Positions 36,978 through 50,650 of a DNA stretch of 64,000 nucleotides are shown here, piece by piece (within the stretch, counting starts at the first letter, position 1; every line of letters begins with the position of its first letter). Source of the DNA: Cyclobacterium sp. (GTDB lineage: Bacteria > Bacteroidota > Bacteroidia > Cytophagales > Cyclobacteriaceae); assembly GCF_014762705.1 (NCBI RefSeq), contig NZ_JABURL010000097.1, positions 1-64,000 on the forward strand, in the 5' to 3' direction. The notes under the pieces are model-generated. The model saw only the letters and a list, made by a program, of their open reading frames with translations. It ran no database searches and had not been told where the DNA came from. The position numbers were made by a program, and so were the translations under genes.

Positions 36978-38555
36978 TCATTCGGAAACGGAAAAGTCTA
37001 ATTTTTTTAAACCTTCCTGGATTTCCGGAGCCTGCATAAACAATTCCCAGCCCAAACCGGACCGGTAGTTTTCTATCATGGCAACGATGGGTCCCTGATC
37101 AATGGCCAGGTAACGTTTGGGGTACCAATCTTCTTCCGGGCTCAGGGCATCGTAAAACCCATACCGGCCAAAAGTCTTCTCCCCGTAATTGTAATAGAGG
37201 TTTTTGAGGACTTCCATGCTTTCTTTTGGCGTATAAGGAATGGATGAAAGTGCCGCTGTTGGCGAAATAACACCGATATCGTTACCTGGCCGGTGGGCTG
37301 AATACCCTATGGTAGAATAACTGGCAGTAAGCCCCCATAAATCTGAACCATAGCCTTTAAACCCTGCTTCATTCTCCAAACACCACTGCCGGTTGATCAG
37401 GCTATGGTTACGGTTATGCTCCCAATAATCAGCATACCTGTCTTTTAGTCCTTTTGGATTCAATCCCAGGTAAGAATAGTGCGCCCAAAACAAGGGACCT
37501 CCGTAATCCGGGGATCCATTATGTAAAAGAGGCAGGGAATAACCAAATGCCTCACTTTCGTTTTGAATGGCTCCCCCACGAGCCCAACCCTGGTGATATA
37601 CCTGCTCTGATACGGCATGCGTAGGAGAAGATGCTGCTAAAACATAAGTGATCAGACACTCATCATACCCCCGGATAGCAAAGTTTTTTTGCCATCCAAA
37701 ATTCGGAGACCAATGCCAATAAAGCACCTCCTGCCCACCCTGTGTATGCCAGTCCCATTGCATTTCTTTCCACAAAACGTCTATTTTGTCAGCCAGGGCT
37801 TTTTCCCTTTCATTTCCTTGCTTGTAATATTCCCTTACTGCAAGTAAGCCTTGCATCAAAAAAGCCGACTCGACCAGGTCCGCCCCATCATCATCCTGAC
37901 CAAAGGGTTTTACTTTGCCAGTCTTTCCATGGATCCAATGGGACCAAATGCCATGAAACCGATCTGCATTCCCCAAAAAGTCTACTATCTTTTCAAAACG
38001 GGCAAGGCCTTTTTCCCGGCTGATCCATTCCCTTTCCAAACCAGCAAGCAAGGCGAAGAGTCCAAAACCAGTCCCTCCTGTGGTCACTACATTTTGGTCG
38101 TCTTGAGGGTATACCCCATCCATATGAATTCTTTCCCTGGCCATTCCCGAATTTGGTTCAGCACCCTCCCAAAAATACCGGAATGTATAGTATTGAACCA
38201 TGTCCAGCAATTCCTCTTCAGTCATGGTCCGTGTTTCTACGGCCACTTCCCCGATCACCCGGGATTCTTCTCCCAGCACCGCTTCGATTTTATACTGCAA
38301 GCCCAGGTTTTTTCCCAGATCATTCACAAAATCCAGGTAAAGCGTATCTGATAGCTCCGCCCTTTTGGAGTAATCACCATCTTCTTTTCGGACATAAATC
38401 TCATATTTATCCGCCTGCTCAACGGGATTCCAACTCAATTCTACATGCCGGTCATAGGCATTCGATTTTATCCCGTTGGGGGAATGGGCTTTTTGCTTGC
38501 AGGAATATCCGGCTAGCAACAGCATAATAATCGCGCAATAGGGAAATAATTTCAT
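36978..38555 (-). CDS. GH144-type (glycoamylase-like) glucanase lipoprotein with FnIII-like domain
   Basis: 525 residues from the ATG at 38555, which gives a lipoprotein signal (MKLFPYCAIIMLLLAGYSC). An FnIII-like domain (residues about 25-110, AYDRHVELSWNPVEQADKYEIYVR) precedes the (alpha/alpha)6 catalytic domain. Landmarks are YYTFRYFWEGAEPNSGMARERI, VTTGGTGFGLFALLAGLER, DGADLVESAFLMQGLLA, YWHWSPNFGW and YLAIDQGPIVAMIENYRSG. This matches the glycoamylase family that includes GH144 endo-beta-1,2-glucanases. It is paralogous to the neighbouring gene and starts 16 bases after it, so the pair forms an operon. Confidence 0.88.
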   Translation of the reverse strand: MKLFPYCAIIMLLLAGYSCKQKAHSPNGIKSNAYDRHVELSWNPVEQADKYEIYVRKEDGDYSKRAELSDTLYLDFVNDLGKNLGLQYKIEAVLGEESRVIGEVAVETRTMTEEELLDMVQYYTFRYFWEGAEPNSGMARERIHMDGVYPQDDQNVVTTGGTGFGLFALLAGLEREWISREKGLARFEKIVDFLGNADRFHGIWSHWIHGKTGKVKPFGQDDDGADLVESAFLMQGLLAVREYYKQGNEREKALADKIDVLWKEMQWDWHTQGGQEVLYWHWSPNFGWQKNFAIRGYDECLITYVLAASSPTHAVSEQVYHQGWARGGAIQNESEAFGYSLPLLHNGSPDYGGPLFWAHYSYLGLNPKGLKDRYADYWEHNRNHSLINRQWCLENEAGFKGYGSDLWGLTASYSTIGYSAHRPGNDIGVISPTAALSSIPYTPKESMEVLKNLYYNYGEKTFGRYGFYDALSPEEDWYPKRYLAIDQGPIVAMIENYRSGLGWELFMQAPEIQEGLKKLDFSVSE

Positions 38556-38571
38556 GATTTTGGGTTTAGTG

Positions 38572-40539
38572 CTATTCATAAGTAAAATCTAATTTTTCCA
38601 GGCCGGATTGGATATCTTTATTTTGCATAAAATGATTCCAAAGTAAACCTGTCCGGTAATTTTCAATCATTATTACAATAGGCCCCTGATCAATGGCCAG
38701 GTAATCCCTTGCAAACCATTGCTTGGTTAGGTCAAATGCATCCAAAAAACCCATTTCTCCCCAAAGTCTGTCCCCTAGCTGATAATAGAAATATTCCAGG
38801 GCTTCCATGGATTCTCTGGGTGTATAAGGCATAGAAGATAAGGCTGCCGTAGGAGTGATCACACCCAGGTCCCGGGTAGGTGAATGCGCTGCATACCCTC
38901 CTGGATTATCACTTGCAGTCAATCCCCAGGATTCGGCTCCGTAACCCACAAAGGATTGAGGATTTTGGATACAATGCGCCCTATTGATCAGGCTATGCAT
39001 CCGGTTCTGCTCCCAATAATCTGCATACCTGTCAGCCAGATTCCTGGGATCCAGCCCCAAAAAAGAATAGTGGGCAAAAAACAGTGGACCTCCCCTTTCC
39101 TGTCCAAGGGGAAGGATGAAACCATTGTAAGACTGCCCATTTTGGATGGCTCCATTTCTGGCCCAACCTTCATGATAAACTTCAGCCTCAATGGGATGGG
39201 TGGGAGAAGCCGCTGCTAAAATATATACGATCAAAGCTTCGTTGTAACCAGAAACGGGCAGATTCATGGCCCATTCCTGATCAGGTGACCAATGCCAGAA
39301 TAACCGGTTCTGACCTCCTCTGGTGTACCAATCCCATTCAACCTCCTCCCAAAGTTGGGTAATTTGATCCTGTAGCAACTTTTCTTCACTCCTGCTGCCA
39401 TCAAGGTAACTGCTAATGGTTAAAAGCCCTTGCATCAATAAAGCCGTTTCTACCAAATCCCCTCCATTGTCCAGTGTGCTGAAAGGAATGGTTTTTCCTG
39501 TATTACCATTCATCCAATGGGGCCAGACACCATGAAAACGATCTGCTCCCTGAAGAAAATCAAGTATTCTTGACAACCTGCTCAGTCCTTGTTCCCTACT
39601 GATAAAGCCCCTTTCCATTCCTACCACAAGGGCCATGATGCCGAATCCGGAACCACCAGTGGTAACCAGGTCACCGGAGCTACTTCTTTCCCTTGCCATG
39701 CCACTTACCGGATGCGCAAAATCCCAGAAATACCTAAAGGTCTGAGATTGAACTTTATCCAACAGCGTATTTTCATCCAACAAGGGAAATTTTGGTTCAG
39801 CTGCCGTATCAGTATAAAAAGTGAGTTCAAATCCTTCCACATCAATCTCAGTGTCCGGATGCTGATCTTCAGACAGGGTAAAGGTAAATTGTCTCAAGTC
39901 TTTCAAGGGTTCCTGGGACCGGATTTGGTAATGAAGAGAATCTTTGACATGGATTACCTGTACAGGGAGCTGTCCCTCTTCCTTTTCATCAAGTTGAATG
40001 TTTTCTTGCTTCAAAACTACTTTACCGGAAAAATGCAGGTCAAGTTGAAAATCAAGTGCTGCCCCAACCCAATTCCTGCCACCAAGATGATCTGCACCCT
40101 GTAGGACAAATGACTGTACCGAAACTGCACCAAAAAGAGTGGTAAATACAAGCTCCCCGCCTGCATATACTTGTCCATTCTCACCGGTTAATCCCGAATG
40201 AATTTCCAGCTTGTAGGTAGTTCCCGGTTTAAGCAATCCTACCGGAAGCAGCCTGATGGTCTGCGATTCGTCCAGAAAATTGGTATTGAAAGGGACTTCC
40301 TCTCCGGAATCCATATCCGTTAATAGCAGGTTTTTGGAAACGGAATTTAAAGACAGGGGGAAATTAAAATATAAATGAATGGCCTGATCAACGGGGATAC
40401 CGGTCAAGGGTTCTATTCCTTGAATTTCCATTTCACCAATGGTTATCTTGGTCAATTCCAAAACCGGAAAGGCCTTCTCTTCCGGTTGGCAAGACCAAAA
40501 GATTAATGAAGATAAAAGTAAGAGAACCCAATATTTCAT
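38572..40539 (-). CDS. GH144-type glucanase lipoprotein with N-terminal Ig-like domains
   Basis: 655 residues. The lipobox is IFWSC (Cys17). Residues about 25-250 form Ig-like modules (first with GIPVDQAIHLYFNFPLSL, Big_5-like). The catalytic toroid follows from about 265: SQTFRYFWDFAHPVSGMARER, VTTGGSGFGIMALVVGMERG, GDLVETALLMQGLL, FWHWSPDQEW, YLAIDQGPIVIMIENYRTG. The domain is clearly homologous to the downstream paralog, but the accessory part differs. It has its own leader element (40551-40598) downstream of the SusCD-LamG terminator, so it heads a separate transcript within the PUL. Confidence 0.88.
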   Translation of the reverse strand: MKYWVLLLLSSLIFWSCQPEEKAFPVLELTKITIGEMEIQGIEPLTGIPVDQAIHLYFNFPLSLNSVSKNLLLTDMDSGEEVPFNTNFLDESQTIRLLPVGLLKPGTTYKLEIHSGLTGENGQVYAGGELVFTTLFGAVSVQSFVLQGADHLGGRNWVGAALDFQLDLHFSGKVVLKQENIQLDEKEEGQLPVQVIHVKDSLHYQIRSQEPLKDLRQFTFTLSEDQHPDTEIDVEGFELTFYTDTAAEPKFPLLDENTLLDKVQSQTFRYFWDFAHPVSGMARERSSSGDLVTTGGSGFGIMALVVGMERGFISREQGLSRLSRILDFLQGADRFHGVWPHWMNGNTGKTIPFSTLDNGGDLVETALLMQGLLTISSYLDGSRSEEKLLQDQITQLWEEVEWDWYTRGGQNRLFWHWSPDQEWAMNLPVSGYNEALIVYILAAASPTHPIEAEVYHEGWARNGAIQNGQSYNGFILPLGQERGGPLFFAHYSFLGLDPRNLADRYADYWEQNRMHSLINRAHCIQNPQSFVGYGAESWGLTASDNPGGYAAHSPTRDLGVITPTAALSSMPYTPRESMEALEYFYYQLGDRLWGEMGFLDAFDLTKQWFARDYLAIDQGPIVIMIENYRTGLLWNHFMQNKDIQSGLEKLDFTYE

Positions 40540-40686: not shown

Positions 40687-41772
40687 TCAATTTGCCTCTT
40701 CCATCATTATGGATTGTATTTCAGACTGACTGATAACCCGGTTAAAAATCCTTAATTCATCCAATTGACTTGAGGTAGACAAATGGCCCCAACCGGCAAA
40801 CCGCGGTGCGCCTGAGGCTACCGAAAGGATATCACAACCAGACCAGTCTATTCCCGGAAAGCTCCCCTGGCTGACCACTTCCCCATTGATATAAACGATA
40901 CATTGGTCAGAGGAAATGGTAAAGGCTATGTGATTCCAGGCATCTGAAGACGGATCAATATCTGCCGCTGCTCCTCCATCAAACCAGTTTTCACCCGACC
41001 CATTGCCTACATTCAATTTAAAACGCTGCATTCCTCCTGCATTTTCCCTGAAAAGCCTGAATCCGGAAGTCCGGTTATTCATGGCGGTTGGGTTGGCTTC
41101 GTCTGGAGGCCCCATCACCAAAAGGCCAGCACGGTCGGCCGTACCATTCAATTTGTACCAAAAAACCGCACTGAATTCTTCAGAATGAAGATTTTCCGCC
41201 TCATAAGTCAGATATGCATCCGGACTACCGGAGTAGGCCCTTCCAGAAATACCATCTGTAAATCCAGGTGATCCGGATACATTGGCATTCTGGATCTGAA
41301 CCAATTCAGTATAATCACCATCAAATGGTAAATAAAATACCTCGTCTTCATAAATGGGTTGGTAAGGCTCGATTTTTTCAAATACCACCGAAGTATTGGT
41401 TTCCTTCCCGGAAAGGTCCATGGCAATGACATCCAACTGGTGTTCTCCATTTGTCAGGTTATCGTATTCAAAGGAACCCAGAAATCGCCTGTAATCTTTG
41501 AAGTCCTCAAACCTGGCAATCTCCTGTCCATCCAGTTCAACCGCCACCCATTCGATTTCAATATCGTCTACAACCTCAAGGTCGATCTCTATGGAAGTAA
41601 CATCTTCTGTAACCCGAATCTGGGTACCATCCGTTGGATAGTTCAAAGTAATTTCGGGAGATTCACTGTCTGCTCCCGGTTCAACAAATTCAATATCGTC
41701 AATATAGCCATCTGTACAGGCAGTGAGGCAAAAGGCCACAATTACCAGCAGGCTGATCCATTTATTTAACAT
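40687..41772 (-). CDS. LamG/concanavalin-like lipoprotein, probable surface glycan-binding protein
   Basis: 361 residues from the ATG at 41772, chosen because it gives a lipoprotein signal (MLNKWISLLVIVAFCLTAC, lipobox LTAC). A longer open frame into the SusD gene is spurious. An Ig-like domain (about residues 40-135) is followed by a LamG/jelly-roll domain (LPFDGDYTE, SAVFWYKLNGTADRAG, WNHIAFTISSDQCIVYINGEVV, SSQLDELRIFNRVIS). Located third after SusC and SusD, it is the position of a surface glycan-binding protein. Ligand presumably matches the PUL substrate. Confidence 0.87.
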   Translation of the reverse strand: MLNKWISLLVIVAFCLTACTDGYIDDIEFVEPGADSESPEITLNYPTDGTQIRVTEDVTSIEIDLEVVDDIEIEWVAVELDGQEIARFEDFKDYRRFLGSFEYDNLTNGEHQLDVIAMDLSGKETNTSVVFEKIEPYQPIYEDEVFYLPFDGDYTELVQIQNANVSGSPGFTDGISGRAYSGSPDAYLTYEAENLHSEEFSAVFWYKLNGTADRAGLLVMGPPDEANPTAMNNRTSGFRLFRENAGGMQRFKLNVGNGSGENWFDGGAAADIDPSSDAWNHIAFTISSDQCIVYINGEVVSQGSFPGIDWSGCDILSVASGAPRFAGWGHLSTSSQLDELRIFNRVISQSEIQSIMMEEAN

Positions 41773-41797
41773 CTTGGAATATATTTTATGTTTCAAA

Positions 41798-43348
41798 TCA
41801 TTCTTCGTTTGCTGCCTCGCGTATTTGAGGTAGGATGTCTTGTTGCTCCAGCGGGTAAGGCAGAAACCTATCTCCTTCGCTAAAGGTCCTGCCGCCATAA
41901 TTCAGTTCTGAAGTGCGGTCATACCTGATCAGGTCAAAATACCTTATCCCCCATTCCATGGCAAATTCGGCATATTTTTCATCCAATACGGCATCCAGAT
42001 CCACGGAGGAAAGGTTATTCAACCCAGCCCTGGCCCTTACCAGATTTACAGCTTCTTCTGCTGACAAGACCTGACTACTGGCTCCATTGACCAGAGCTTC
42101 TGCATGCAAAAGCAGTATTTCAGCATACCGGATACAGGTGAAATTCTTGTTTTCCCCATAAGTAAACCTTCCGGGGGTCAACTGAGTGGAAGGAAGGTAA
42201 TGCTTACCGCTCAGGAATTGATACCGGGGGTGATTGTTAAACACATCTCCGTCGGGACTTACATTGGAAACCCAATCCGGTAAATTTTCATAGGCGGCAT
42301 CAGATTGAATTTCAGCTATTCCGTCTGGGGTAAATAATACAGAAGTGGTAAGACGCTCCTGTTCATTTCTGTCCAGCATAAACTTAACGTATTTATTGGA
42401 GGGTTCGAAAAACCCCCAACCTCCCCCTGCTCCAGAAACGGCAGGTGTCCAGCTGGCGGGGCCGAAAAAATCCCAGAGGTAGCGGGTACGTGTTCCGCTG
42501 GCCTGACCAAAATCAGAATATTGCAACTCCAGCAAATTTTCATCATTCAGCTTTCCGGAAATTTTAAAAAGCTGATAAAAATCCGGTTCCAGGGTAAATA
42601 AGTCACTCCCGATGATTTCCTCCGTAGCAGCTACCACTGCAGTGTGGTTGTTCAGCTCCATATTGGCCCTGGCCTTAACGGCCAATGCTGTGTAGCGGGT
42701 CACCCCTCCCCTTACCTCAGACCTTTGGTTGGGACGAACACTTGGTAAATCCGGGATAGCCGCATCCATTTCCATGGAAATGTGTTGCATTACGGTTTGA
42801 AAATCGGACAACTCCACATTAAACAAATGGCTTGGCTCGGACGCATTGGGTATAAGCACTGATCCCCAGAGTTTGGCCAGATACATCAATTCAAAAGCTC
42901 TCATGACCCTGATTTCTGCAATGTATTGCCTCGCATTGGCTTCATTGGCACCGGCCTCCCTGTACTTTTCGATTTCTTCCATGGCACCATGCCAGTACAG
43001 AAGATCAGAATACAAATTGAGCCAGGTGGAATTGTACATCCAAAAATTCCTGTCATACCGAAACTCGTCCGTTTCTGTTAGGGGAAACTGATCCCCAGCC
43101 GCATTAACGTCATCGCCCCGAACACTTATTAAGGGAAAAGTTTCCCATTGCAAACTATACAATTCGCCATAAGCGCCGTACAAAAGCAAAACCATGTTTT
43201 CAGATTGAGAATAATCTGTATCTTCAGCAATGAACTCATTTTCCAATGGCTCATCCAGCACATCAGTACAAGCCGGTCCCATGAGGATTGCTGAAAAGAC
43301 CAGAAACAGCACGAAAATATATTTATAGGTATTCATCTTCATCTTCAT
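41798..43348 (-). CDS. SusD/RagB family nutrient-binding outer-membrane lipoprotein
   Basis: 516 residues. The lipoprotein signal ends at MGPAC (Cys27). The helical TPR-like core begins FQTVMQHISMEMDAAIPDLP. The C-terminal landmarks are the conserved CIRYAEILLLHAEALVNG, the VNLVRARAGL region, EFAMEWGIRYFDLIRYDR and FLPYPLEQQDI. It caps the partner SusC barrel and delivers glycan fragments. The stop is 25 bases before the LamG lipoprotein ATG, and it starts immediately after the SusC stop. ATG choice among residues 1, 3 and 5 is uncertain. Confidence 0.95.
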   Translation of the reverse strand: MKMKMNTYKYIFVLFLVFSAILMGPACTDVLDEPLENEFIAEDTDYSQSENMVLLLYGAYGELYSLQWETFPLISVRGDDVNAAGDQFPLTETDEFRYDRNFWMYNSTWLNLYSDLLYWHGAMEEIEKYREAGANEANARQYIAEIRVMRAFELMYLAKLWGSVLIPNASEPSHLFNVELSDFQTVMQHISMEMDAAIPDLPSVRPNQRSEVRGGVTRYTALAVKARANMELNNHTAVVAATEEIIGSDLFTLEPDFYQLFKISGKLNDENLLELQYSDFGQASGTRTRYLWDFFGPASWTPAVSGAGGGWGFFEPSNKYVKFMLDRNEQERLTTSVLFTPDGIAEIQSDAAYENLPDWVSNVSPDGDVFNNHPRYQFLSGKHYLPSTQLTPGRFTYGENKNFTCIRYAEILLLHAEALVNGASSQVLSAEEAVNLVRARAGLNNLSSVDLDAVLDEKYAEFAMEWGIRYFDLIRYDRTSELNYGGRTFSEGDRFLPYPLEQQDILPQIREAANEE

Positions 43349-46300
43349 TTAAAGTTTAATATTCAGACCAACGGTATAGATGGCCGGGATAGGGTATACC
43401 TGCCGGTCAATACCATTTGCCACTTCGGGATTAAAACCGTTGTAATTAAACATCGTTAAGGGCCGCTCTGCAGTAAGGGTGAATCTGGTCTCAGGCATTG
43501 TAGTACCGAAAACCTCTTTATCCGCAAGGGTATAGGAAAGCCGTACATTTTGAATCCTGAAATAGGAACCGTCTTCCACAAAATAATTGCTCAGATTTTG
43601 GTTCCAGCCCTTTCGCAAGCCTGCGGCTGAGGGGTAGCGATTGGATGTACCCTCGCCTCTCCAGAGGTTATTGGCAAGTTCGGCATCCAAATTGGTATCA
43701 TTGGTGAAAATGATTTCTCCCCGTTTCCGGTTTAGGATTTTATAGCCGGATTGCCCTTGAAAGAGGGCTGAAAAATCCAGGTTTCTATAACGGAACCCGG
43801 CATTAAAACCATAAGTCAGACTGGGCAAAAAAGATCCCAGTACCACCCGGTCCTGGTCATTGACTATACCGTCCTCGTTTTGATCCCTGAAAATCAAATC
43901 GCCAGGCTGCAGGTTATTGTCGTTGATAAATTCCTGCGTGTAACCGTAGGAATTTATTTGTTCCTGAGATTGAAAGACCCCATCCGTCTCATATCCGAAG
44001 AAAGCCTGGTAGGGTTGACCAATAATGGACCTTTGTCTGAACTCTGCTGAGCCTGCATCCAGGCCTTCTGCCCCGCCCAATCCCAGAACGATGTTTTTAA
44101 GCGTTCCAAAATTCCCACCAAAATAATAGGAGAAATTGGTAGTCAGGTTATCCTCCCAATTGGCCGCCACTTCCAGGCCCTGATTCCGGATTTCACCCAC
44201 ACTTCTCCTTTCGCTGGCACGGATTACCGGAGGGATAATGCTCACCGCAAGGTTTCGTGTATCTCTGATAAAATAGTCCGCTTCTATAGAAAGTCTTTCC
44301 CTGAACATACGGGCATTCAGACCAAAATTTCTTTCTACCGTTGTTTCCCACTGCTCTATCAAATCAAAGGTTGGATCCAACCGCCGACCAATGACCAATA
44401 CTCCATCAATGGCAGCATTATTTTCCACCAGAACCGGGGCGCCTACGGATGGGCTGATACCATCATTACCCAATTCACCCCATGATCCGCGAAGTTTTAA
44501 GAAATTAATCGCATCTACATTAAAGAAGGCTTCTTCTGTAAGCACCCATCCTGCACCAATAGTGGCAAAATTACCCCATTTGTTTTGGAATTTATTGTTT
44601 CCATCGCGCCGGAAAGTACCATACAAGAGATAGCGGTCATCGTAATTATAGGCCACACGGGAAAAGTAAGACTGAAAAAACAAACGTGATCCTCCATCAC
44701 CAATACCATTGAGGTCAAAATCAGTCGCATTATTCAGGTACCAGAACTGTTCCTGGTCCCTGTCCGGATTGGGATTGATATTTTCCCCCCTGGCAAACAA
44801 AGCTTCATTGGTTTCGCTCCTGTAGGATTGTCCCAAAACGACCGTCAGGTTATGCCCGTCAAAATTGTTTTGGTAAGTAAGGAAATTATCCCAAATCTGA
44901 TCATAACGGTTGAAGGTTCTCCTGTTGATGGACGATTGCCGCTCAGTTACCCCATCGTTATAGGCAAAGCCAACGTTTCTGCTGGTTACGGTTTCCAGGT
45001 TGTAATTATAAGAAGTCTTGAAGGTCAGGTTATTGGGAATAATTTCCAACTCAGCATAAAAGTTACCCAGAATTTTCGCAATCTTGTTTTTGTTGTCAGA
45101 ATATAAAAGGCTGTAAAAGGGATTTTGATTGCCCCTATATCCGATTTGCTGGGCATTAGAGAGTTGATAGGGCTGGGCATTTTCGTTTTGCTCATCATAC
45201 ACCGGAATGATGGGTACCGCAAAATAAGATCTGAACCAAGCCCCATTGTCCCCATTGTACTGCTCTCCTGTACTGACATTCAGGTTACCACCTACACTGA
45301 TCCAATCCTTAAGATCAGCATCCAATTTTACCCTGAAGTTCATCCGCTTATAGCTGTTACGGGTATCTTTCATCAGGCCCTGCTGGTCGAAATAACTACC
45401 TCCCACGGAGTATCGGGTCCTTTCACTCCCTCCATTGATAGAAAGGGTGTGGTTTTGAATGGTAGCTGGCTGCATCATTTCAGCATACCAATCTGTATTC
45501 ACATCCGGCAAACTGGGATCAATGCGGCTTCTTCCATACCGCTGAATGGCATTTTGAACAAAAGCAATATCCGGGGCAGATCCTGTCTCGTTGATGTACC
45601 CGACAAACTGTTGGGTATTGGCCATTTTTAAAATATTTTGCGGGTTTTGAATCCCATAATAACCATCATAGACAATTTCCGGCTCCTGATTGTAGCTGCC
45701 GGACTTGGTTTCTATGACCACTACACCGTTTGCAGCCCTTACCCCGTAAATGGCAGATGCGGATGCATCTTTTAAGACGGATATGGTTTCAATATCGTTT
45801 GGATTGAGAAAATCAATATTATCGAAAAACATGCCATCTACCACATAAAGGGGAGCTGCTCCACCTTCGAAAGAACCAACACCTCTCACACGGACGGTAG
45901 GAGAAGCACCGGGGGCCCCGTTGCTGACGATTTGTACCCCGGCCACACGGCCCTGAAGCGCTTGCATGGCTTGAGAATTAGGCGTTTTGATGATATCATC
46001 AGATTTTACAGTGGTAATGGCAGAAGTAAGGTCCTTTTCCCTTTGGGTACCGTACCCAACTACCACAACCTCCTCGAGATTTTGCGAGTCTTCAGAAAAC
46101 ACCACATTAATTTGGCTCCGGCCATTGACATTCACTTCCTGGGTTTCAAAACCTATAAAAGAAAAAACCAGTGTCGCCTCGGAGGAGCTGACCGTTAATT
46201 CATAATTACCGTCCATGTCGGATACGGTTCCGTTGCTGGTGTTTTTTTCGAGAATATTCACTCCCGGAACCGATTCTCCTGTAGGATCAGTAATATTTCC

Positions 46301-46438
46301 AGATACAGAAATTTGTTGGGCGAAGGCACTTGAGCCAGCCAGGCTTATCATCCACAGAAAAAAGCCCAGGCTCCATCCCAATTTTGTTGGAATTTTGGGT
46401 TTAAAATATCCCTTGCTGTAAGTAAAAGGAATTTTCAT
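43349..46438 (-). CDS. SusC/RagA family TonB-dependent transporter
   Basis: 1029 residues. A signal peptide ending SSAFAQQ is followed by a carboxypeptidase-like domain (ISVSGNITDPTGESVPGVNI), the TonB box LEEVVVVGYGTQ, and the plug (TPNSQAMQALQGRVAGVQIV, TVRVRGVGSFEGGAAPLYVV, IETISVLKDASASAIYGVRA ANGVVVIETK). The remainder is the beta barrel with the C-terminal aromatic-type strand AIYTVGLNIKL. With SusD it imports oligosaccharides across the outer membrane. It has a 300-base leader to the regulator gene and heads the main PUL transcript. Confidence 0.96.
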   Translation of the reverse strand: MKIPFTYSKGYFKPKIPTKLGWSLGFFLWMISLAGSSAFAQQISVSGNITDPTGESVPGVNILEKNTSNGTVSDMDGNYELTVSSSEATLVFSFIGFETQEVNVNGRSQINVVFSEDSQNLEEVVVVGYGTQREKDLTSAITTVKSDDIIKTPNSQAMQALQGRVAGVQIVSNGAPGASPTVRVRGVGSFEGGAAPLYVVDGMFFDNIDFLNPNDIETISVLKDASASAIYGVRAANGVVVIETKSGSYNQEPEIVYDGYYGIQNPQNILKMANTQQFVGYINETGSAPDIAFVQNAIQRYGRSRIDPSLPDVNTDWYAEMMQPATIQNHTLSINGGSERTRYSVGGSYFDQQGLMKDTRNSYKRMNFRVKLDADLKDWISVGGNLNVSTGEQYNGDNGAWFRSYFAVPIIPVYDEQNENAQPYQLSNAQQIGYRGNQNPFYSLLYSDNKNKIAKILGNFYAELEIIPNNLTFKTSYNYNLETVTSRNVGFAYNDGVTERQSSINRRTFNRYDQIWDNFLTYQNNFDGHNLTVVLGQSYRSETNEALFARGENINPNPDRDQEQFWYLNNATDFDLNGIGDGGSRLFFQSYFSRVAYNYDDRYLLYGTFRRDGNNKFQNKWGNFATIGAGWVLTEEAFFNVDAINFLKLRGSWGELGNDGISPSVGAPVLVENNAAIDGVLVIGRRLDPTFDLIEQWETTVERNFGLNARMFRERLSIEADYFIRDTRNLAVSIIPPVIRASERRSVGEIRNQGLEVAANWEDNLTTNFSYYFGGNFGTLKNIVLGLGGAEGLDAGSAEFRQRSIIGQPYQAFFGYETDGVFQSQEQINSYGYTQEFINDNNLQPGDLIFRDQNEDGIVNDQDRVVLGSFLPSLTYGFNAGFRYRNLDFSALFQGQSGYKILNRKRGEIIFTNDTNLDAELANNLWRGEGTSNRYPSAAGLRKGWNQNLSNYFVEDGSYFRIQNVRLSYTLADKEVFGTTMPETRFTLTAERPLTMFNYNGFNPEVANGIDRQVYPIPAIYTVGLNIKL

Positions 46439-46739
46439 ACATCAGTTAAGTTAGGTAGTAATTAATAATTTAATCGGAAATCTGACTATTGGTATTTCCT
46501 CCGAAAAGGTAATCTAAAGACTTAAAAACATCTGAATCCCACTAAAAAATATTGGAAATGCTGTCCTCAAAAATGGGAAAAATTAACCGTTATTTTCCAG
46601 ATTAATAACATAAGAATCATTGTTAATTTGATTTAAACAGGATTTTTAAAAATAAATATCCAATGTACTTATCAAACTTTTATATACCTACCCAAATGGG
46701 TGTCAAAAAATTTTATTCGAAATATTCTAATTAAAAATA
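46439..46739. other. Leader region between the regulator gene and SusC
   Basis: 301 AT-rich bases upstream of SusC on the minus strand. No ORF is supported. Minus-strand TTACCTTTT near 46510 weakly resembles a -7 box. A small dyad ACCCAAATGGGT is seen at about 46691-46702. This is the likely place for binding by the neighbouring regulator, but no operator is obvious. Confidence 0.4.
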
Positions 46740-48641
46740 TCAGGTAGATAAGGGTTGCAAAAGTATCAGTTCCTCCCAACTCAAACTACCCTCTTCAACT
46801 GCTTGCATTTTTTGATTTACCTTCTTCCGAAAAGCCCAAATTGTATTCCGGCCTAAATCAAGTACTTCTGACAATTCATCAAGGGTCATCTTGTCCTTTA
46901 CTGCCAGGGAAGCATAAAGGATATAAAATGCCTTTTCAAGAGGGAATTTAATACCATGAAAAATCGTACCAGCTGTTGCGGAATCAATGTGTCCGCAATG
47001 GGTGCATCTCCGTGAAAACCATTTTGGGCCTTTTCCGAATTTGGTTTTGCCGCATTGTCTGCACGAAAAACCTTTTCCCCATTTGAGGTCTTCCAAATAC
47101 CGGTAACAGGCCGATTGATCTGGGAAAATATTGGCGAATTCTTCCCGGGAAAGGGATTGCTGAGAAATTCGTGCCTTGTAAGAATCCCTGATGGAACTTT
47201 TTAATTTCCAATTGTCTTTGTCCAGTAGGGCATTTATTCTTTTGATCTCCCTATCCTTATCCTGCAATTGCCGGTTATAATGTTCGAGTAAACGGTTTTT
47301 TTCCTCCAATTCGGTAGTTCTGTCCTTTACCTTTGTTTCCAATTCCAGGTTTACCCTCTCCTTCAAGGCTATATTTTCTTTGTATTGATTCAAGGAACGC
47401 TTTAATGCTTTATCCCGTATTTCTTTCATAATTCGGATCCTGTCTCCCAGAGCAAAAGACAACAAGACCATCTCAACCAAAAAAGCAAAATGAAGGCTAT
47501 AGTAAACGATGATATGGTGTGGTATAATGGCGTAACTTGCCAGGACTTTTACCAATACTCCAGAAAACAAAACACCGTAGGCCATCACAAAAAATCGCGC
47601 TGCCTGAAAATTCCTTGACAACAAAAAAATGCCGGTAGAAAATATCAGTAGGAAAGGAATCAGATCAAAAAAGGAAATTTCAAAATAGGATTTATCAATC
47701 AACAGGCCTGTCATGAAAATCATGGATTTGAAAAACAATGAAAACCAAAGCAAATAATGAAAGGTTTTAGCCCTTCTACGGGTGTTTAAAAAGCGGATGG
47801 TAAACAGGACTGCCCAAAAAACAATAAAAAAACTAAATACACCATTCACAATAAAGTTCAATTCCGGCACCTGGGGCCAAAAATATTGGAAACCTATCCC
47901 ATCCAAACTCATGGCGTAAAATCCCACGCTCAGCAAGTATAAAATATAATAGATATATTTCATTTCCCTTACGGCCAGAAAAATAAGGAAATTGTAAAAG
48001 GCAATGATGAGAATCATGCCATAAAACAATCCATATAGAAAATATTCACTAAGGGCATAATGAATAAACCGGTGAAGTGAACGAACCGCGATGCGGACAT
48101 CGGCCTTCTGCGTGGAATTGATCTTAAAGTAAAAATTTTCAATTCTATCTAACTGGTTAGGGATTTCAAGTTGAAAATTTTTATGGTAGAAAAGTCGGTT
48201 GTTAAAGGGGAGGTCGTCCCCCATCAATCGCCGTTGATACATCCCGTTTTCATCCGGAAAATAGGCTTCTATCTTATCTATACTTTGATCATAAAACTCC
48301 AGCAACCACTTTTTTTCGCTATCTGGAAAATTGGCTATAGAGAGTTTAACCCAATAAGTATGACTGGTATTGAAATCATTTTTACTGAAATTTGCATCGA
48401 TTTTAAAATATTGCTGGAACTCCTCTTTGATGATGTCTTCAAATACCAGGGTGCCGGTTGTATCTTCAAAAAATTCAAGCTGATCTATGGCATATATTCT
48501 CTCATTCCAGTTGTCATCTATGGCTAATGTTGCCTCCCCTGAAATGCGCTGACTAATCCCGGATTCAGGAAATAGGAAAAAAAACATGAGGAGACAAATT
48601 TTCACAAAGAAAACCCTCCACAAAATAAATTGCCTGTTCAT
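46740..48641 (-). CDS. 7TM-DISM membrane sensor with C-terminal IS1595-type zinc ribbon and HTH
   Basis: 633 residues. A signal or membrane start (1-30) leads to an extracellular 7TMR-DISM sensory domain (about 40-190). Seven hydrophobic helices span about 198-400, and a coiled coil about 405-480. The C-terminus is not a kinase or cyclase. FANIFPDQSACYRYLEDLKW is followed by a four-Cys zinc ribbon (C527, C530, C546, C549), SATAGTIFHGIKFPLEKAFY, and an HTH (about 583-610, MTLDELSEVLDLGRNTIWAF). That block is the N-terminal recognition part of IS1595-family transposases; no DDE catalytic domain follows. Position directly upstream of SusC suggests it is the PUL's membrane-bound transcription regulator. 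Domain calls are by motif; DNA binding is inferred. Confidence 0.85.
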   Translation of the reverse strand: MNRQFILWRVFFVKICLLMFFFLFPESGISQRISGEATLAIDDNWNERIYAIDQLEFFEDTTGTLVFEDIIKEEFQQYFKIDANFSKNDFNTSHTYWVKLSIANFPDSEKKWLLEFYDQSIDKIEAYFPDENGMYQRRLMGDDLPFNNRLFYHKNFQLEIPNQLDRIENFYFKINSTQKADVRIAVRSLHRFIHYALSEYFLYGLFYGMILIIAFYNFLIFLAVREMKYIYYILYLLSVGFYAMSLDGIGFQYFWPQVPELNFIVNGVFSFFIVFWAVLFTIRFLNTRRRAKTFHYLLWFSLFFKSMIFMTGLLIDKSYFEISFFDLIPFLLIFSTGIFLLSRNFQAARFFVMAYGVLFSGVLVKVLASYAIIPHHIIVYYSLHFAFLVEMVLLSFALGDRIRIMKEIRDKALKRSLNQYKENIALKERVNLELETKVKDRTTELEEKNRLLEHYNRQLQDKDREIKRINALLDKDNWKLKSSIRDSYKARISQQSLSREEFANIFPDQSACYRYLEDLKWGKGFSCRQCGKTKFGKGPKWFSRRCTHCGHIDSATAGTIFHGIKFPLEKAFYILYASLAVKDKMTLDELSEVLDLGRNTIWAFRKKVNQKMQAVEEGSLSWEELILLQPLST

Positions 48642-50269: not shown

Positions 50270-50650
50270 TTATAATTTGAATTTTTCTTTAAATTGACTG
50301 AAATCCTGAATACTGAATGGTTTTACCCAAAAATCAACCACTCGTTTATATTTATTAGCTTTGCGTTTGTCTGCAGCTTCAATGGAAGAAGTAATGATGA
50401 TCACCTCAATGTTTTGAGAAAGGTTCATGGCATCCAAAGTGTCCAAAACATCCCATCCTGATAAACCAGGCATATTGATGTCTAGAAACATGAGATAATC
50501 CTCATCAGGTAATGCATTGTCCGCAAGAAAACCTACAAGATCCTCTCCATTGTTGAAAGAGGTCACCTCATGGGTTATCCCGGCCTTTTCCATCAGTTTC
50601 TTCTGCAACAAGATAACAATGGGATCATCATCTACCAATAATATTTTCAC
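50270..50650 (-). CDS. Stand-alone response-regulator receiver protein
   Basis: 126-residue single CheY-like receiver domain. Acidic pocket residues are in LLVDDDP, the phosphoacceptor is Asp57 in LMFLDINMPG, Thr/Ser is in IIITSS, and the conserved Lys is in WVKPF. No output domain follows, so it acts through protein-protein contacts or phosphorelay. No histidine kinase gene lies in the window. Such lone receivers are common in Bacteroidota. Partner kinase unknown. Confidence 0.93.
   Translation of the reverse strand: MKILLVDDDPIVILLQKKLMEKAGITHEVTSFNNGEDLVGFLADNALPDEDYLMFLDINMPGLSGWDVLDTLDAMNLSQNIEVIIITSSIEAADKRKANKYKRVVDFWVKPFSIQDFSQFKEKFKL

Follow-up and report, generated by a model that had tools for sequence, protein, structure and literature searches.

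A 7TMR-DISM receptor fused to an IS1595-type zinc-ribbon/HTH module as a predicted membrane-tethered regulator of Bacteroidota glycan loci

The 7TMR-DISM receptors of bacteria include RetS, LadS, and SagS, and regulators of the ToxR/CadC type combine an N-terminal winged helix-turn-helix (HTH) with one membrane helix and periplasmic sensing. Sensor proteins with a C-terminal DNA-binding domain, among them one 7TMR-DISM architecture, have been described from proteobacterial genomes (PMC8092284), which makes too narrow the claim of an initial sequence-only reading of the present locus that known 7TM-DISM proteins end only in enzymes; the section of that paper on these proteins makes no mention of polysaccharide utilization loci (PULs) or transposases. 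Searches of the open-licence literature returned no description of a sensor family in which a 7TMR-DISM receptor is fused to a transposase module, and nothing that treats 7TMR-DISM together with polysaccharide utilization; for 7TMR-DISM together with transposases they returned a paper concerned, by its title, with an Arcobacter plasmid.

The window referred to throughout is the whole stretch of DNA analyzed, 64,000 nucleotides of a Cyclobacterium sp. contig. The open reading frame (ORF) singled out by the sequence-only reading, which gave no strand, is present at its coordinates on the minus strand, and its parts are as follows.

46740..48641, minus strand: gene of the 7TMR-DISM/IS1595-type membrane regulator, 633 aa (ORF, Pfam; full-length relatives at 60/60 loci)
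48084..48482, minus strand: 7TMR-DISMED2 periplasmic sensor domain, residues 54-186 (Pfam; Foldseek match to RetS)
47439..48047, minus strand: 7TMR-DISM seven-helix membrane part, residues 199-401 (Pfam, AlphaFold2)
47166..47438, minus strand: long helix that may form a dimeric coiled coil, residues 402-492 (AlphaFold2 and invariant residues)
46989..47123, minus strand: IS1595-type four-Cys zinc ribbon, residues 507-551 (Pfam PF12760; Cys invariant in 49 homologs)
46800..46949, minus strand: IS1595-type HTH stretch, residues 565-614 (partial NF033547 match below cut-off, tblastn, AlphaFold2 helices)

Both receptor domains score far above their Pfam cut-offs (7TMR-DISMED2, PF07696, residues 54-186, E 2e-28; 7TMR-DISM_7TM, PF07695, residues 199-401, E 5e-41), and a Foldseek search with the full AlphaFold2 model recovered the RetS periplasmic domain (2xbz/3jyb, E 4e-5 and 5e-5), with GH2-type sugar enzymes appearing only at E > 0.001. 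The model itself (mean pLDDT 84.9, pTM 0.64; low confidence at residues 25-35 and 477-489) comprises an N-terminal helix, a beta domain, membrane helices, one long helix spanning residues 382-492, and a C-terminal module. Pfam and AlphaFold2 bear out the originally proposed layout of sensor domain, seven helices, zinc ribbon, and HTH; the coiled coil of that proposal may be formed by the long helix, in which L434, E435, R441, T442, N470, L473, D474, N477, and L480 are invariant across 49 homologs. Apart from a coiled-coil match to NF053512 far below cut-off, Pfam and NCBIfam scans of the regulator detected no enzymatic intracellular module (kinase, GGDEF, cyclase, or phosphatase), and Pfam detected no HisKA/HATPase/receiver, propeller, sigma, or FecR domain. 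The protein is by its sensor half a 7TMR-DISM receptor and is not a transposase. Elsewhere in the same genome, a 710-aa protein combines the same receptor part with an end that looks like a histidine kinase on visual inspection, and at one related locus (L095) a 7TMR-DISM histidine kinase adjoins the fused gene.

The IS1595-like character of the output module, also part of the sequence-only reading, is upheld by three lines of evidence. Zn_ribbon_IS1595 (PF12760) matches residues 507-551 at 27.1 bits, barely above its cut-off of 25.4; the NCBIfam IS1595 transposase model NF033547 aligns at residues 565-614 over only positions 3-53 of its 215, at 20.6 bits and far below its cut-off of 75, so that the stretch following the ribbon is present and the catalytic part absent; and tblastn with two IS1595 transposases of the same genome gave significant matches to the window only over the ribbon/HTH region, with 42% identity across 120 residues for one and 35% across 114 for the other. 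The remaining tblastn matches of both transposases lie at E ≥ 0.03, leaving no remnant of a DDE domain in the window and nothing significant past the ribbon/HTH that could represent a frameshifted transposase, in agreement with the claimed loss of the catalytic domain. Cysteines C527, C530, C546, and C549 are invariant in 49 aligned homologs, as are several HTH residues. The fold prediction that had been suggested for the module yielded three short strands and short helices (pLDDT 82 for the module alone); against solved structures, the module alone gave nothing significant (best E 0.43).

We surveyed named genomes using only a C-terminal alignment of ten sequences (A1, with peptide patterns from the HTH region) and retrieved 60 loci, all 60 of which encode full-length fusions (ORFs of 597-692 aa) carrying both receptor and module. 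Since the query held the module alone, the shared receptor half constitutes an independent finding. By record titles, the loci belong to Bacteroidota of many genera, plus one metagenome-assembled genome titled Rickettsiales, and the closest named record over the module is C. plantarum, at 97% identity. Within the family of the window, 215/295 genomes match the whole protein at 1e-20 or better, a count that includes other 7TMR-DISM proteins and transposases. Phylum-wide, 18/296 genomes match the module at 1e-15, several of these through plain transposases. Across 198 genomes of the class, PF12760 matches come mostly from ORFs close to 300 aa long, with eight, the window's among them, from ORFs exceeding 600 aa; three of the long ORFs, from family label f61, are receptor fusions, and fused copies occur under family labels f2, f4, and f5 as well. 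The recurrence of the fusion at every one of the 60 loci, over many genera, and under all four of these family labels leaves scarcely any room for a chance fusion of recent date or a faulty assembly.

In a tree of the module (63 rows), a single branch with 100/100 support separates 49 fused rows from 14 transposase rows, two of which are identical. This topology allows a single capture of the module, which by homology we infer to derive from an IS1595-type transposase stripped of its catalytic domain. Among the transposases themselves, one genome (G452) holds thirteen module matches that are IS1595 transposases by ORF length (loci L045, L057, L059, and L061-L067); in ten copies compared, the aligned parts are about 71-92% identical and mostly limited to the ORF region. 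One contig of the Cyclobacterium genome (C12; L004, L005) carries two same-strand IS1595 transposase genes about 1 kb apart.

In transcription order, the regulator gene directly precedes susC and susD, as the sequence-only reading had stated (ORFs, Pfam), and the genes that follow it in the window are listed here.

43349..46438, minus strand: SusC, opening gene of the PUL that is the presumed target (Pfam; gene order in orthologous loci)
41798..43348, minus strand: SusD (Pfam)
40687..41898, minus strand: Laminin_G_3 protein, start uncertain (Pfam; cluster c4, in 47/61 sets, that is, 60 loci plus the window)
38572..40539, minus strand: PF10091 enzyme, GH144-like (Pfam; best PDB match 4gl3, E 1e-165, then 5gzh, E 1e-160)
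36978..38579, minus strand: second PF10091-family enzyme (best PDB match endo-beta-1,2-glucanase 5gzh, E 2e-191)

The best match of the enzyme at 38572..40539, 4gl3, is named just 'putative glucoamylase', and 5gzh is an endo-beta-1,2-glucanase; both PF10091 enzymes, which we take to be GH144, also match 5gzk and BDI_3064 (5z06), and XCC2207 (8xul) weakly. Because both match endo-beta-1,2-glucanases, the locus is a predicted beta-1,2-glucan PUL, its substrate being assigned from enzyme homology. At 50270-50650 on the minus strand, the window also encodes a stand-alone receiver-domain protein of 126 aa with a GTG start, upstream of a BNR_4 gene; its cluster (c11) comprises the window and four Cyclobacterium loci.

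Tabulating receptor, module, and neighboring genes, as had been proposed, placed susC adjacent to the regulator in 46/60 loci and within four genes in 50/60: it follows immediately on the same strand in 44, is a divergent immediate neighbor in 2, lies two to four genes away in 4, and was not seen in 10. Several of these ten loci have other degradative neighbors, with a GH144-cluster gene next to the regulator in L103 (where the region ends soon after), GH30 next in L106, GH9 next in L126, and, in L119 and L120, a divergent neighbor from the same cluster as the GH9 gene of L126. Five loci with a full-length regulator (L084, L090, L091, L095, and L096) showed no recognized glycan gene among their neighbors. 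In L090 and L091, from two related genomes, the regulator precedes what appears by eye to be a fumarase-like gene, and no PUL was seen there; the target may have changed. Among twenty further copies, hand-picked from the family and phylum searches, with many close relatives and with L183 repeating the gene of L106, susC lies within four genes in 18, at various PULs. These loci vary in content (GH30 with a SusE-like protein; GH16 with GH3; GH3; GH2; GH10 with CBM4_9; sulfatase with GH3), and at the one f61 locus annotated (L228) a GH81 gene adjoins the regulator with GH16 a few genes on. Non-PUL neighbor clusters are each limited to at most 11 of the 61 sets (60 loci plus the window). Relatives thus lie beside GH30, GH16, GH3, GH10, GH9, or GH81 genes, and since the PUL enzymes differ among loci, the class is tied to glycan loci rather than to any single substrate, with some preference for beta-glucan enzymes. 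GH144 PULs of other lineages are without the regulator, and the four annotated proteins upstream of such PULs are one Reg_prop, one GerE, and two FecR proteins; one operon type under differing regulator classes is the pattern expected if all of them regulate that operon.

Expectation-maximization at width 18 on 47 regulator-susC gaps (46 loci and the window) recovered one strong motif, with a log-likelihood ratio of 191 against 58-65 in three shuffled sets, a comparison that somewhat favors the real data because these were given 60 starts and the shuffles 25. The motif, TG-N6-AAGCG-N2-A, is non-palindromic, lies on the susC strand, and often occurs as two direct copies. The best pair per gap is spaced 64-66 bp in 40/47 gaps, with 95 spacings allowed and the second copy sometimes weak, and in a matrix-free spacing test over 20-129 the spacings 64 and 66 rank first. 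A clear pair (each site above 3 bits, the two totalling more than 18, at a spacing of 63-67 bp) is found in 33/46 loci, and no such pair exists elsewhere in the 883 kb of those 46 loci. In a leave-one-out test on both strands, matrices were rebuilt without the test locus and its near copies, although the full matrix had served to locate the sites. The top-scoring pair across the entire locus falls in the regulator-susC gap in 44/47 cases and the best single site in 43/47; pairs exceed 16 bits in 35/47, and the top pair outside any gap reaches 15.9 (L123). The pair test failed for the window, L068, and L116; L111 and L113 have weak pairs and L069 a negligible one of 3.4 bits.

Whether the motif belongs to the fused protein has to be weighed with care, as the link between the two is one of co-occurrence. 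An alternative that we regard as improbable, yet worth keeping in mind, is that some other, unlinked regulator uses the paired motif as its operator, or that the motif is a promoter feature specific to the lineage, with the fusion acting indirectly or only co-occurring. Consistent with it, L158 (a regulator-susC locus outside the motif set, with no pair above background), L116, and the window hold regulator and susC without a clear pair, and several gaps of Roseivirga and related genomes carry the word ATGCAAACGTTTTC, which resembles LacI-type sites. The controls leave it some room too: the best pair in 19 GH144 loci without the regulator (16 with susC) is only 11.6 bits, but almost all of these loci come from other families and the same-family L159 and L160 lack susC, so regulator and lineage are confounded. 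Against this alternative, in six held-out loci (L087, L088, L103, L105, L106, and L124), where a degradative gene or operon follows the regulator and susC was not called next, a pair of 17-30 bits lies directly after the regulator in 6/6; the pair thus follows the fused gene even when an esterase-cluster, GH144-cluster, or GH30 gene comes next. The same-layout motif of a paralogue group at other PULs, described below, likewise argues for the fused protein. Eight other regulator loci have pairs of at most 8.1 bits, except for one of 14.2 bits far from the gene in L126, and three Cytophaga/Sporocytophaga copies beside GH9-cluster genes have no nearby pair. In L094, L097, L100, and L102, the two operator copies flank the word (A)TGCAAACGTTTTC, which resembles LacI-type sites and hints at a second regulator.

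Two predicted elements lie between the regulator and susC in the window.

46593..46614, minus strand: predicted operator site, core TGTTATTAATCTGGAAAA (top-scoring single site in the 64 kb, both strands, 16.0 bits)
46503..46511, minus strand: promoter-like element TACCTTTTC, whose start lies 81 bp past the operator site (TAnnTT offset pattern)

The operator score comes from a matrix from which near relatives had been removed. No partner copy can be recognized in this species, and single sites discriminate poorly: the window's 16.0 bits compare with up to 14.6 in controls and 16.1 in L126. A regular expression for the motif applied to the same genome gave 21 matches against 7 for the reversed pattern and was judged too loose to define a regulon. 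Across 39 non-redundant gaps, TAnnTT, a pattern picked after viewing the data, starts 80-82 bp past the near site in 20, compared with at most 11 in 500 shuffled sets; the canonical TAnnTTTG box is present in 1/47 gaps and was set aside. Site and promoter-like box are apparently held in register, which suggests an activator. A repressor that releases its operator once glycan is sensed is quite improbable: it could act by looping, but the near site ends 80-82 bp before the promoter-like box starts and the far one is another 64-66 bp away, where an activator and not a blocking repressor would be expected.

The paralogue group found at other PULs offers a second, type-2 version of the motif. In sixteen paralogue gaps, the search returned TGcGanTGAAGCGTATCA with a log-likelihood ratio of 193 against 53-61 in four shuffled sets (80 starts for the real data and 30 for the shuffles, again somewhat favoring the former), and this motif has the TG-N6-AAGCG layout of type 1. 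A second copy of its 3' half lies 78-81 bp away in 14/16 gaps; over all 22 gaps examined, 16 locus-distances fall within 76-82 against 2.7 expected, the half-site having been written after the motif was known. At least three types of locus are represented in the paralogue group: GH30/SusE, GH16/GH3, and one in which a PKD protein precedes susC. The likeness of the two matrices is suggestive, with a correlation of 0.56 between the 95% (0.51) and 99% (0.59) points of permuted matrices. L229 carries two copies 77 bp apart, consistent with the paralogue pattern, and in type-2 gaps such as those of L185, L187, and L189, an imperfect inverted repeat, TGTAACAnACTATA...TGTTAG, lies just past the near operator copy.

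A relation between module residues and motif bases is so far a lead only. Among type-1 modules, Arg597 goes with C at the middle of GCG in 27/34 (full GCG in 24/34; middle T in 5), Gly/Ser/Asn at 597 with middle T in 9/9, from few independent lineages, and the single Pro row with GCG. In the residue-base covariation, this pair ranks tenth of the 15 listed by one clustering and falls outside the top 15 by the other, with no clear centring on the recognition helix. A derivation of the motif from IS1595 ends was also considered and dropped, as no link was found: the transposase loci examined yielded neither clearly definable terminal repeats nor a convincing motif site.

The zinc-ribbon/HTH might alternatively no longer bind DNA and serve as a protein-protein adaptor or as the recruiter of an IS-derived partner, the latter having been raised in the sequence-only reading. 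For such a role speak the lack of a significant solved-structure match for the module and the five copies without recognized glycan neighbors, yet we consider it very improbable in view of the invariant cysteines and HTH residues, the operator-like motif downstream, and the rarity of shared non-PUL neighbors noted above. No support for a recruited IS-derived partner was found, and the conserved, predicted operator-like motif fits direct DNA binding better. None of a non-IS1595 ribbon, a following DDE domain, or a consistent absence from PULs, which the sequence-only reading had named as evidence against itself, was encountered; its observation was right, and its interpretation is supported as largely right.

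On the computed evidence of the fusion and its conservation, its location at glycan loci, the operator-like motif, and the promoter-like box at a set distance, we consider it likely, though well short of certain, that the protein is a membrane-tethered one-component transcription regulator, most probably an activator, of the glycan locus that follows it. In the proposed mechanism, periplasmic glucan oligosaccharides would bind the RetS-like DISMED2 domain, the seven helices would relay the change to a dimeric coiled coil, and the coiled coil would arrange two zinc-ribbon/HTH modules. The paired modules would bind two non-palindromic sites in direct orientation, separated by 64-66 bp or roughly six turns of the helix, in the way that a transposase dimer binds two ends, and RNA polymerase would thereby be brought to the susC promoter, where the -7-like box starts 80-82 bp beyond the near site. 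A wider proposal, which we hold to be evenly poised between right and wrong, is that these proteins form an undescribed class of PUL regulators, in which seven-helix receptors became transcription factors through one capture of a transposase end-recognition module. The module would still bind two separated direct, non-palindromic sites as a transposase dimer does, so that promoter DNA is looped against the membrane over about 6 turns (64-66 bp) or 7.5 turns (78-81 bp), and subfamilies would have kept the TG-N6-AAGCG layout while changing spacing, flanks, and glycan locus. If true, Bacteroidota would have a further PUL-regulator class in which a single protein spans from periplasm to promoter, the predicted operator would offer target prediction across many genera, and the family would be a bacterial example of a transposase DNA-recognition module turned transcription factor.

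Set against known systems, the regulator shares DISMED2 and the seven-helix part with 7TMR-DISM receptors, its sensor fold matching RetS, but has a transposase-type zinc ribbon and HTH as output in place of an enzyme. With IS1595 transposases (PF12760, NF033547) it shares the zinc ribbon followed by an HTH stretch, at 42% identity over 119 residues to a transposase of its own genome; there, however, the ribbon is N-terminal, whereas here it is C-terminal and fused to a receptor, with no DDE domain, and the regulator holds a place before susC in 44/60 loci. The proteins treated in the relevant section of PMC8092284 likewise join a sensor to a C-terminal DNA-binding domain, but a different one. 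Established PUL regulators, namely hybrid two-component systems and ECF-sigma/anti-sigma pairs, occupy the same position at GH144 PULs without the fused gene, yet the fused protein has none of their kinase, receiver, propeller, sigma, or FecR domains. ToxR and CadC unite a periplasmic sensor and DNA binding in one membrane protein, an arrangement that the domain order of the fused regulator fits, its topology and binding being predicted; it differs from them in having seven helices and a C-terminal zinc ribbon/HTH. As far as its domains indicate, the regulator probably works like ToxR, CadC, or ChiS, through a seven-helix receptor and a transposase-type recognition module.
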